From NCBI RefSeq assembly GCF_009935865.1, contig NZ_QWEL01000007.1:1-64000 (forward strand): DNA of 64,000 bases, in the 5' to 3' direction. Under the pieces are notes generated by a model. That model was not told the DNA's origin. It worked only from the letters and a program-made list of their open reading frames with translations, and searched no databases. The position numbers were made by a program, and so were the translations under genes. The stretch is from Odoribacter sp. Z80 (GTDB lineage Bacteria > Bacteroidota > Bacteroidia > Bacteroidales > Marinifilaceae). Shown one piece after another: positions 58,985 to 62,595 of this stretch; the first letter of the stretch is position 1; each line of letters begins with the position of its first letter.

Positions 58985-59893
58985 ATGGCTTATATAGATT
59001 ATTATGGTATTTTGGGAGTTAACAAAACAGCTTCTCAAGACGATATCAAAAAAGCCTTTAAAAAACTGGCCAGAAAATACCATCCCGATCTGAACCCCAA
59101 CGACCCTTCTGCCAAACAAAAATTCCAGGAAATCAATGAAGCCAATGAGGTTTTAGGCGATCCTGAAAAAAGAAAAAAATATGATGCTTACGGCGAAAAC
59201 TGGAAGCACGCGGATGAGTTTGAAGCACAACAACGCCACCAACAGCAAGGTCGCCAAAGCGGAGGCTATTGGTCTTCCGAGAACGGAGGTTTCAGCGGAC
59301 ATTTTTCCGGTAATGAAGGAGAATTCTCTGATTTTTTTGAATCCCTGTTCGGTTCCCGCCGGGGAAACCACCGAAGCACGACCGGCTTTAAAGGACAGGA
59401 TTATAATGCAGAACTGCATCTTTCCTTCCGGAGCGCTGCAACAACCCATAAACAAGTGCTCGAAGTGAACGGAAAAAAAATACGCATCACCGTACCGGCC
59501 GGCGTGAATGACGGCCAAACCATCAAGCTGAACGGCCAGGGAGGTCCCGGCATCAACGGAGGTCCGGCCGGAGACCTCTACATCACCTTTGTCATTGCAG
59601 ACGATCCCGAATACAAACGCGACGGGGATAATCTGTATCAAACCGTTCCTGTCGACCTTTATACAGCCATATTAGGAGGAGAAAAAATCATAAACACCCT
59701 GAACGGCAAAGTGAAGTTAAAAATCAACCCTGAAACCCAGAACGGTACAAAAGTACGCTTAAAAGGGAAAGGATTCCCCGTATATAAAAAAGAAGGACAA
59801 TTCGGAGACCTTATCATCACTTACGAAATACAAATCCCCATGAATCTGACCGAAAAACAAAAAGATTTATTTCGGGAACTTCAAAAATCCTAA
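58985..59893 (+). CDS. cbpA: DnaJ-family co-chaperone CbpA
   Basis: A 302-residue class II J-protein. The J domain fills residues 1-70 with H-P-D at 33-35, then a Gly/Phe-rich linker (about 75-135) and two C-terminal substrate-binding beta domains ([31 protein letters not shown]). No zinc-finger cysteines are present, which separates CbpA from DnaJ. It partners with DnaK. The cbpM gene follows after 17 bases, supporting the CbpA assignment. Confidence 0.94.
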
Positions 59894-59910: not shown

Positions 59911-60225
59911 ATGGAAACCGATTTCATCATCATTAGTGAATATTGTGAGAAAAGCCATACAGACCCGGTGTTTCTACAATCGCTCGAAGAAAGCGGACTC
60001 ATTGAGATACACAGGATAAACGGGAAACAATACCTATCAGCCTCACAACTTGGAGAACTCGAAAAATACAGCCATCTTTATTACGATTTATCCATCAACA
60101 TAGAAGGCATAGACGCCATCCGTCATATACTGCAACGTATAGAAGATCTACAACATGAACTCCGCCAACTCAAACGCCGGACTCTCCGGTTTGAAACCGG
60201 AGAGTCTTTTTTTACAGAAGATTAA
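59911..60225 (+). CDS. cbpM: Chaperone modulator CbpM
   Basis: A 104-residue MerR-like helical protein. E. coli CbpM inhibits the J-domain of CbpA. The core pattern LYYDLSINIEGIDAIRHILQRIEDLQHELRQLK is the family signature, and most relatives end soon after it. Here the frame continues with RRTLRFETGESFFTED, encoded by an intrinsic terminator (60180-60213): the stop codon at 60223 lies ten bases after the T-run. Messages ended at this terminator would have no stop codon. See the finding on this. Confidence 0.9.
   Translation: METDFIIISEYCEKSHTDPVFLQSLEESGLIEIHRINGKQYLSASQLGELEKYSHLYYDLSINIEGIDAIRHILQRIEDLQHELRQLKRRTLRFETGESFFTED
60180..60213 (+). terminator. Strong intrinsic terminator inside the cbpM coding frame
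   Basis: GACTCTCCGGTTT (60180-60192) and AAACCGGAGAGTC (60194-60206) are perfectly complementary, giving a stem of at least ten GC-rich pairs, followed by seven T residues (60207-60213). The cbpM stop codon comes later, at 60223-60225. No other terminator is seen before the next gene. Confidence 0.9.
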
Positions 60226-60504
60226 ATATTTTCCCACAACTATTACCTCTATTCTCACAATCTACCCAAAGCCACCGGAATCTGCCCCATCCAACGATTT
60301 TATTCATACCATCCCCTATTCCGGAACAATTTTATCCCCTGTTAGTGCTATATATTAAATAAACTCCACTATTTTTTTGCAATGAGGAGAAAATCTTAGA
60401 GAAATATTTTACTTTTGTGAAGTATAAAGTGTGCATAGGTGTAAAATAAAACGAAACATTTTTACAAACGATTATAAATTCAACCAACCTAATAGTTTAT
60501 TTTC
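60226..60504 (+). promoter_or_regulatory. Intergenic stretch with promoter of the GH109-like gene
   Basis: About 280 bases without a gene. TACTTTTG at 60410-60417 fits the -7 consensus 88 bases before the GH109-like start, which would give a leader of about 80 bases. A TTTTTTTG lies about 30 bases above it, too far for a standard -33. Nothing else is recognised. Confidence 0.4.
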
Positions 60505-61905
60505 ATGAAAAAAATCATTTATCTATTTGTAGCTGTCCTGACTATAGCTTTTTGCAGCTGTAATTGTCAGACTCAGGCAAAAAAAACAGACGGTATCATC
60601 CGGACTGAAATTCCTCAGCGTGAAGCAGGGCAAACCGATCTTATCGGATTTCGTTGCGATCCTCTTGAAACCGTACGCGTAGGTTTTGTTGGTCTTGGTA
60701 TGCGCGGTCCCGGTGCTGTTGAGCGTTTTACTCATATTCCGGGAGTAGAAATCAAAGCATTATGCGATCTCTATCCGGAACGGGTTGAAAAAACACAAAA
60801 AATCCTGACAAACAAAAACTTACCTGCAGCAGCAGCTTACAGCGGAGAAGAAGGCTGGAAAGAACTCTGCGAACGGGAAGACCTGGATCTGGTATACATC
60901 GTAACTCCCTGGTTGCTTCATACCCCTATTGCAGTCTATGCCATGGAACACGGCAAACATGTTGCCATCGAAGTTCCTGCGGCAACCACCCTGGAAGAAT
61001 GCTGGCAGTTAGTTAATACGGCCGAGAAAACCCGCCGCCATTGTATGATGCTTGAAAACTGTGTATACGACTTTTTCGAACTGACCACTTTAAATATGGC
61101 ACAACAGAACCTATTCGGAGAAATACTACATGTTGAAGGTTCCTATATCCATAACCTGGAAGATTACTGGTCCTCTTACCAAGGCAACTGGCGATTAGAC
61201 TTTAACGAAAAATACAAAGGGGACATTTATGCTACCCACGGCCTCGGACCGGCCTGCCAATTGCTGAATATCCACCGTGGAGATAAAATGAACTACCTGG
61301 TAGCAATGCAAACTAAAGCAGTAAACGGACCAGCTGTGGTAAAGAAAACGACAGGTAAGGATTCCCCCGACTATCAAAACGGAGACCATTCCCTTACCCT
61401 CATCAAAACTGAAAACGGTAAAACCATCCATTTACAACACAATGTGGTGACTCCCCGTCCTTACAGCCGGATGTACCAACTGACCGGAACCGAAGGTTTT
61501 GCCAACAAATACCCCTCTTCCAGCTATACTTTCCGTCCGGACAATGTTTCCAATAACGTTCCGGACCATGAAAACCTGAACGCTCATGGTCCTGTTCCGG
61601 AAAACGTAAAACAGGCATTGATGGAAAAATACAAACATCCGATCCACAAAGAACTGGAAGAAACAGCAAAAAAAGTCGGAGGCCACGGTGGTATGGACTT
61701 TATTATGGATTATCGTATGATTTATTGCCTGCGCAACGGTTTGCCTCTGGACCAAGACGTTTATGATGCAGCAGAATGGTCATGCATGGGCGAATTAACC
61801 CGCATTTCTATCGAAAACAACAGTATGCCGGTAGAAGTTCCCGATTTTACCCGGGGAGCCTGGAAAAAATTGAACGGTTATCACCATTATATGAAAGGTG
61901 AATAA
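60505..61905 (+). CDS. Gfo/Idh/MocA-family lipoprotein, GH109-like
   Basis: A 466-residue protein with a lipoprotein signal (LTIAFCSCNC near residue 18) and an NAD-binding Rossmann fold (VGFVGLGMRGPG), followed by ALCDLYPERVEKT, EVPAATTLEECW and MMLENCVYDFFELTTL, then HGLGPACQLLNIHRGDKM. This is the pattern of GH109 alpha-N-acetylgalactosaminidases, which use tightly bound NAD to cleave GalNAc from mucin-type and blood-group glycans. Sec lipoprotein rather than the Tat signal often seen in this family. A glycoside hydrolase role is likely; plain dehydrogenase activity cannot be excluded. Confidence 0.85.
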   Translation: MKKIIYLFVAVLTIAFCSCNCQTQAKKTDGIIRTEIPQREAGQTDLIGFRCDPLETVRVGFVGLGMRGPGAVERFTHIPGVEIKALCDLYPERVEKTQKILTNKNLPAAAAYSGEEGWKELCEREDLDLVYIVTPWLLHTPIAVYAMEHGKHVAIEVPAATTLEECWQLVNTAEKTRRHCMMLENCVYDFFELTTLNMAQQNLFGEILHVEGSYIHNLEDYWSSYQGNWRLDFNEKYKGDIYATHGLGPACQLLNIHRGDKMNYLVAMQTKAVNGPAVVKKTTGKDSPDYQNGDHSLTLIKTENGKTIHLQHNVVTPRPYSRMYQLTGTEGFANKYPSSSYTFRPDNVSNNVPDHENLNAHGPVPENVKQALMEKYKHPIHKELEETAKKVGGHGGMDFIMDYRMIYCLRNGLPLDQDVYDAAEWSCMGELTRISIENNSMPVEVPDFTRGAWKKLNGYHHYMKGE

Positions 61906-61951
61906 TAAATCATGTATCTATAAGCAACTGGCAACAGAGCCATAAAACAAC

Positions 61952-61999
61952 TTACCCCTGTACCAATGTATGAATCACTTTTCAAAGGTACAGGGGTAA
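61952..61999 (+). terminator. Hairpin after the GH109-like gene
   Basis: TTACCCCTGTACC and GGTACAGGGGTAA form a perfect 13-base-pair inverted repeat with a 22-base loop, 46 bases after the GH109-like stop. The following bases are AT-rich but not a clean T-run. Confidence 0.6.
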
Positions 62000-62008
62000 A
62001 TTGTATAT

Positions 62009-62039
62009 TTTGTATTTATCGGTTTTCTTTATATCTTTG
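62009..62039 (+). promoter_or_regulatory. Promoter of tmRNA
   Basis: TTTG (62009-62012), 19 bases, TATCTTTG (62032-62039): an exact match to the Bacteroidota consensus. The start would be a few bases upstream of the mature tmRNA 5' end at 62054. Confidence 0.8.
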
Positions 62040-62053
62040 CTTTCACATACCAA

Positions 62054-62448
62054 GGGGCAGACCTGGATTTGACAGCATGAAGAATAGGTATGTAAGCATG
62101 TCGGGAGCAGTGAAACGGCCCGTAAATCCCGGACACAAAATTTTAATTGGCGAAAATAACTACGCTCTTGCTGCCTAATCTTTAGAAGATTACTGGCTTA
62201 ATCGCTGCTCAAGGAAGCGGCGACGAGACATTCCACCGGTGGTTCCACCTTATTCCGGCCGGCATACGGGGTGCAGTCAATTTAAGGTTAGTCTTAGCCC
62301 ACCTTTGGCGAAAGGCGAAAATTCAAGAGGATAAGCGATGGCTTGGGTGCTTTTTTCCGGACCATCGTCGAAAACCAACAAAAAGCTAAGCATGTAGAAA
62401 GCATATGGATTCCGTGTTTGGACCAGGGTTCGATTCCCTGCTGCTCCA
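62054..62448 (+). ncRNA. ssrA: Transfer-messenger RNA (tmRNA)
   Basis: A 395-base tmRNA. The acceptor stem pairs GGGGCAG at the 5' end with CTGCTCC at 62441-62447 (one G-U pair), with discriminator A and no encoded CCA. The T-arm reads GGTTCGATTCC. The tag frame ends in codons for GENNYALAA followed by TAA (about 62149-62178), the same tag as in other Bacteroidales. It rescues ribosomes stuck on messages lacking a stop codon and marks the products for proteolysis. Strong promoter and downstream terminator are present. Confidence 0.97.
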
Positions 62449-62494
62449 CAATCAAAAACTGATTATCAGTATTTTGAAAGAATTACACCCAATT

Positions 62495-62554: not shown

Positions 62555-62595
62555 TATAACCGTTATAAATATATGATTTATTTATAACGGTTATA
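62555..62595. repeat. Perfect 17-bp inverted repeat between tmRNA and mltD
   Basis: TATAACCGTTATAAATA at 62555-62571 is repeated as its exact complement at 62579-62595, with a seven-base spacer. Neither side has a T-run. A second small hairpin (ACATCAC/GTGATGT, 62634-62653) lies closer to the mltD stop. It may end the leftward mltD transcript, bind a protein, or be part of an integration-site region next to tmRNA. Confidence 0.6.

Follow-up and report, generated by a model that had tools for sequence, protein, structure and literature searches.

What does it mean for a gene when a complete terminator signal lies inside its reading frame, ahead of its own stop codon, and is such a layout a selected control or an accident of one species? 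This question is raised by cbpM, which follows a cbpA-like gene in the window, i.e., the whole 64,000-nucleotide stretch of Odoribacter sp. Z80 DNA analyzed here (Table 1). The first-pass annotation had described a 13+13 stem and T7 run in frame with cbpM, with the stop codon ten bases beyond, and its coordinates, encoded residues, and stop position at 60223 were all verified on the sequence. The frame opens with ATG and closes with TAA, and codons 90–104 with the stop read CGG ACT CTC CGG TTT GAA ACC GGA GAG TCT TTT TTT ACA GAA GAT TAA. Within them, a perfect inverted repeat of GACTCTCCGGTTT (60180–60192) and AAACCGGAGAGTC (60194–60206) is centered on G60193 and, together with the T-run, encodes R-T-L-R-F-E-T-G-E-S-F-F in the cbpM frame. 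The predicted RNA fold has 13 pairs and a 3-nt loop, with a G60179–U60207 wobble counted among the pairs, and none of 200 shuffles folded equally well. The stem begins 44 nt ahead of the stop, and its entire 5′ arm is translated. With a G+C-containing stem, a short loop, and a T-run directly after, the signal has the make-up of an intrinsic terminator, and as in genes of the arfA/brfA type it lies wholly upstream of the in-frame stop (T-run end 60213, stop start 60223, i.e., 10 nt after the last T). If RNA polymerase stops there, the cbpM message ends near codon 99–101 of 104.

Table 1 Coordinates and supporting evidence for the features discussed (window positions unless a locus is named)
Feature	Position	Strand	Evidence
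cbpA-like gene for a DnaJ co-chaperone of 302 aa, presumably opening the transcript	58985..59893	+	DnaJ and DnaJ_C Pfam domains
cbpM (MerR_2) gene with internal terminator, 104 aa	59911..60225	+	ORF; PF13591, 94.6 bits; frame and C-terminus kept in relatives
Hairpin, 13 pairs, loop 3	60179..60207	+	−22.0 kcal/mol, z −5.5; terminator scan
T7 run, codon 99 third base to codon 101; transcripts predicted to end here	60207..60213	+	Sequence
TAA stop of cbpM	60223..60225	+	Sequence; alignment columns shared with the G001, G003, and G004 stops
tmRNA gene, tag GENNYALAA	62054..62449	+	ARAGORN
14-pair terminator-like hairpin, then TGTTTTTG (pth, same genome, outside the window)	L141:1576-1607 = G000:C8:6255-6286	+	Terminator survey; pth codons 26–36

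The name CbpM rests on the match to MerR_2, a model that the window protein passes, and on the adjoining cbpA-like DnaJ gene, which ends 17 nt upstream; this is a MerR_2-type protein encoded beside cbpA, and each of the 14 compared loci (11 distinct) had a cbpA match ≤300 nt ahead of cbpM. The NCBIfam CbpM model was not passed (20.3 bits against a cut-off of 138), and the score for the NCBIfam HspR model was likewise far below threshold (29.6 bits against 105). The HspR score is slightly above the CbpM score, with both well under cut-off, and a role as CbpA inhibitor is putative. Since the dimerizing helix of Klebsiella pneumoniae CbpM spans residues 67–99 in the available text of PMC4063869, a protein shortened by three to five residues at its C-terminus would probably keep its fold, and the tag rather than the truncation would matter for CbpM.

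We evaluated whether the signal exceeds chance by recoding cbpM synonymously with the codon usage of the genome and the protein kept. As only 1 in 20,000 recodings reached the observed terminator score, a chance origin is unlikely. When 471 called genes were each recoded 100 times, an equal signal never appeared in the last 60 nt (0/47,100) and appeared once anywhere in a gene (1/47,100). cbpM itself was outside these 471 genes: it was missed by both rounds of gene calling (initial and refined), has a codon score of only about 1.4, and entered the terminator survey via a list of all ORFs. Further small genes could have been missed in the same manner; other small ORFs near terminators had codon scores of −14.6 to 1.8 and are presumed non-coding; nearly all of them overlapped called genes, and one, of 55 aa at C8 330, overlapped none.

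Across the 666,103 of 2,563,163 bases (26% of the genome) that were surveyed, to which any statement of uniqueness applies, a single detector recovered 59 hairpins with T-runs at ≤−14 kcal/mol. The cbpM signal was the sole one of these placed wholly within the 3′ end of a real gene, and its hairpin ranked 14th in energy among 61 terminator-like sites of the same sample. Most signals (42/59) lay ≤150 nt past a called stop, at a median distance of 20.5 nt, and 12 of these 42 started ≤12 nt after it. The remaining internal hits were of other kinds: one at C1 81678 was close to the 5′ edge of an open frame in which the next Met is codon 37, and is not a 3′-end case, one at C8 6255 lies in pth (see below) and is not a 3′-end case either, and those at C14 23123 (−14.0) and C9 14615 (−15.0) were both remote from the stop. 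Two called genes scored ≥14 (the C1 case, 19, and a pth case, 17), compared to 0.27 expected per sample; the C1, pth, and C14 23123 hits, at 10, 85, and 137 nt past an upstream gene, may also sit among the 42 counted as following a stop. In 200 kb each of two related genomes (G007 and G004), 0/19 and 0/14 signals lay wholly within a called gene. As a positive control, the arfA stem of Escherichia coli K-12 was recovered by a similar folding scan with a looser T threshold.

A dispersed palindrome was considered and rejected. Across the whole genome, the 13-nt half-site (≤1 mismatch) occurs five times, namely as the two cbpM arms and three single sites, with no second full copy; the 23-nt core had no exact match in viral contigs; and among 198 loci, matches were confined to the five covering the cbpM site itself. 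No Rfam match at the gathering score was found in the cbpAM region.

Next, we compared the locus with its relatives. cbpM matches were found in 7 of 8 genus genomes (including this one) and 24 of 56 family genomes, and 65 loci, counting the window, were compared (7 from the genus, 17 further ones from the family, 1 named contig, and 40 from the order). This count omits L009–L011, L098, and L099, which duplicate other rows, and a G113 match cut at a contig end; it includes L012, from a named collection, which may duplicate another genome, and two loci from G300. A strong terminator wholly ahead of the stop was found in the window alone (1/65), and none of the other 64 loci carried a comparable signal. 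Weaker hairpins inside the ORF, which we did not hold comparable, were seen in L012 (−8.5), L129 (−16.6, with T-tract TTGATTTT), and L132 (−11.3, far upstream), several loci had hairpins spanning the cbpM stop (L005, L017, L021, L022, L110, L131, L133, and L136), and others, e.g., G001 and G004, had a terminator after it. An intermediate arrangement is seen in G015 and G017 (L021 and L022), which belong to a different genus of this family: the stem opens 11 nt ahead of the stop codon and extends across it, and the T-run comes only afterwards. A conserved cbpM element was rejected on these loci. A position conserved among orthologues, as would be expected of selected control of the arfA/brfA type, was not seen (1/65), and the internal terminator looks like the quirk of one species rather than a conserved regulatory device.

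The alignment of cbpM ends, which the first-pass annotation had proposed as a check, showed that the C-terminus and the stop position are shared by relatives and the hairpin is not. Over their final residues, G001, G003, G004, and G007 show a gap-free alignment to the window as far as the stop region, so it is the hairpin, and not the stop of cbpM, that is new. For this species a second genome was not found, the best relative being 76% identical, and the sequence comes from a single assembly; a frame-shifting sequencing error is nonetheless unlikely since the C-terminus, the length, and the stop position match those of relatives.

We think it fairly probable, overall, that the hairpin and T7 form the intrinsic terminator of the cbpA–cbpM transcript. 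Such a terminator would have arisen in this species within the last 15 codons of cbpM, with the T-run supplied by the Phe-Phe codons. Where RNA polymerase runs ahead of the leading ribosome, termination would take place inside the T-run, and the resulting messages would stop near codon 99–101 without a stop codon; ribosomes reaching the message end would be freed by tmRNA–SmpB, and CbpM would then be tagged and degraded. Read-through, or a close ribosome blocking the 5′ arm, would instead yield intact CbpM. Many cbpM messages would probably lack a stop codon, and the likely net effect would be that CbpM is somewhat reduced relative to CbpA. The terminator reading is supported by the strength of the stem and T7 (−22.0 kcal/mol) and by the plus strand from cbpM up to the following gene (60505), in which no other terminator-like site was detected by a scan that is blind to Rho-dependent termination. 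Because the terminators of this genome lie near stop codons, a shift across the stop codon would be a short step.

The genome encodes both tmRNA and SmpB, as systems of the arfA/brfA type require, and the architecture supports the annotation's claim that a transcript terminated here would have no stop codon and would need tmRNA. Our survey of rescue factors covered tmRNA, SmpB, RF-1-domain proteins, and RqcH. Two RF-1-domain proteins were found, with open frames of 373 and 353 aa, i.e., of release-factor length; no RF-1-domain protein of ArfB length and no RqcH (PF05833) were found in the genome. Among the routes searched, tmRNA–SmpB was the only one found.

The tmRNA gene does lie downstream of cbpM with the predicted tag, as had been reported, and its nearness looks like a local arrangement: in L010 and L011 (G001 and G003), the 4 kb that follow cbpM contain no tmRNA gene, while the other ten loci checked hold ≤1.8 kb of downstream sequence and are hardly informative. 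tmRNA works in trans. The gene at 60505 is of the GFO_IDH_MocA/GH109 type and is preceded at 60410 by a TAnnTTTG sequence, which we take to be of the Bacteroidetes −7 type; the gene itself had no match in any of 14 loci. The upstream genes GSCFA and Mntp are common to the window, L010, and L011, and with no GFO_IDH_MocA match in the 14 loci and no nearby tmRNA in L010 and L011, the present downstream neighbors are probably local. With the upstream genes shared with L010 and L011 and the downstream genes differing, a synteny break directly after cbpM (60226–62449) is possible. A 17-pair, A+T-rich inverted repeat lies at 62555–62595, ~100 bases past the tmRNA gene.

Could the signal have a different origin, or a different function? 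The first-pass annotation had raised a recent stop-codon loss carrying the frame through an old terminator, and such a loss, or a sequencing error with the same outcome, would account for a stop lying just a few codons past a terminator. The relatives contradict it, as G001, G003, and G004 also encode 104 aa (105 in G007, 111 in G002, and 101 in G005), with similar end residues and a stop in the same columns, and G007 carries a T7 in the same columns, also as Phe-Phe codons, without a comparable hairpin; we consider this origin hardly credible. It is also very improbable that the hairpin is not a terminator at all and instead binds a protein as a palindrome, is cleaved by RNase III, or stabilizes the mRNA. 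A dimeric protein could recognize a perfect palindrome of 27 bp, and RNase III cleaves the arfA stem as well according to the available text of PMC3989581, but the palindrome has a single full copy in the genome, T7 directly follows the stem, and no other terminator-like site follows the gene pair. Coupling between transcription and translation also bears on the terminator reading: if it is tight, the 5′ arm would be masked and most messages would read through. In a version of this that we rate as unlikely, the leading ribosome of growing cells prevents the hairpin, full-length messages dominate and end downstream, and termination occurs only when translation lags. The fully translated 5′ arm, with a stem starting 44 nt before the stop, would permit this, and brfA offers a natural precedent from Bacillus subtilis, where polymerase outpaces ribosomes (available text of PMC13323073), from which the present host may differ. 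Yet no second terminator-like site stands before 60505 to end such messages, and the short stop-to-stem distances (12/42 at ≤12 nt) and the 53.6% purine content of coding strands weakly favor a polymerase running ahead. For comparison, most intrinsic termination sites in E. coli lie 25–75 nt past the stop codon (available text of PMC12207403), and purine bias has been linked to runaway transcription in PMC13323073, in the available text of which the word Bacteroid- is absent.

Selected non-stop control as in arfA and brfA would hold CbpM down as long as tmRNA is available and allow higher levels once rescue capacity is outrun or RNA polymerase becomes slower. The shared architecture, the excess over chance (1/20,000 recodings), and the fact that no ArfB-length protein or RqcH was found, by which overload would be unmasked by those two, all speak for it. 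Against it, the remaining 64 cbpM loci showed no comparable signal; the feedback of arfA and brfA is explained by their products being rescue factors, which CbpM is not; and if rescue were overloaded with no backup factor present, CbpM would stay behind as peptidyl-tRNA instead of being released. We consider this control improbable. Nothing supports selected tmRNA control of CbpM: a comparable signal is absent from the 64 other loci, the product has no known rescue role that would explain feedback, and the tie between chaperone control and ribosome rescue that the first-pass annotation had drawn finds no backing in those loci. Even less probable is that non-stop messages serve to make a protein that is a chaperone modulator and no rescue factor in a genome with no ArfB-type protein or RqcH found, such that its amount reports coupling and the state of tmRNA. 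We return to the probable terminator of the cbpA–cbpM transcript, whose position would be a by-product of evolution and not a control under selection.

A second hairpin from the same genome illustrates what a selected signal may look like. It lies within pth, which encodes peptidyl-tRNA hydrolase (PF01195, 208.9 bits) and follows a gene for ribosomal L25 (PF01386, 87.2 bits). We read 58 pth loci, the best-matching ones of searches across the genus, order, and family (matches in 7/8, 109/119, and 53/56 genomes, respectively). At least 12 of the 14 pairs were kept in 52/58 loci, and ≤10 pairs in 6/58. Across 56 distinct sequences, which are related so that pairing counts are not independent, 94.0% of cells paired and two-sided changes affected 8 pairs (50 cells), compared to 33.8–52.4% of cells and 3–7 pairs (4–16 cells) when the partner was slid by 1–3 bases. 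Synonymous recoding retained ≥12 pairs in 19% and ≥13 pairs in 5.6% of cases, i.e., amino acids alone favor some pairing. No Rfam family at the gathering score covered this hairpin, and no such hairpin appeared in the titles or opening abstracts among the matches listed for pth and terminators. The pth hairpin is a candidate ORF-internal attenuator that appears to carry the signature of a selected ORF-internal signal, which cbpM lacks. This contrast suggests a rule in which conservation and compensatory synonymous changes separate selected ORF-internal signals from single-species accidents.

If termination at cbpM is real, cbpM would join arfA and brfA as a natural non-stop gene, though one outside the rescue-factor group, and would supply a native trans-translation substrate in Bacteroidota, and it suggests that terminators near stop codons can come to lie ahead of them. 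The architecture is already known from arfA and brfA, and cbpM is, as far as we have seen, a new host gene for it: no such case appeared among the matches listed for CbpM (with Bacteroid- or MerR), for terminators with non-stop mRNA, or for Bacteroides terminators, which leaves absence in print unproven. The following comparisons draw on the available text of the sources cited. An artificial E. coli ORF with an intrinsic terminator makes non-stop mRNA in vivo (Keiler 1996, cited in PMC3989581); the principle is the same, a terminator in the ORF sufficing for non-stop mRNA, but that gene is engineered, not natural. kinA of B. subtilis is, like cbpM, a non-rescue gene with a non-stop message, ascribed in its case to accidental recombination (cited in PMC3989581). 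The parallel with E. coli arfA drawn in the first-pass annotation is apt as to architecture, with a stem-loop in the 3′ part of the coding region, a message cut short ahead of the stop (predicted for cbpM), and tmRNA in common (PMC3989581, PMC8012679), whereas the arfA stem is cut by RNase III, the gene encodes a rescue factor (PMC3989581, PMC8012679), and its T-rich stretch lies inside the stem in the arfA sequence we read. In brfA (yqkK) of B. subtilis, a Rho-independent terminator inside an ORF of 71 sense codons yields a non-stop message and an SsrA-tagged product of about 62 aa (PMC6881298). The terminator in the ORF, the non-stop message, and the tmRNA tag, predicted in the case of cbpM, are what the two share; brfA, however, encodes a rescue factor under tmRNA control demonstrated by experiment, while cbpM is a MerR_2 chaperone-modulator-like gene known from its sequence.
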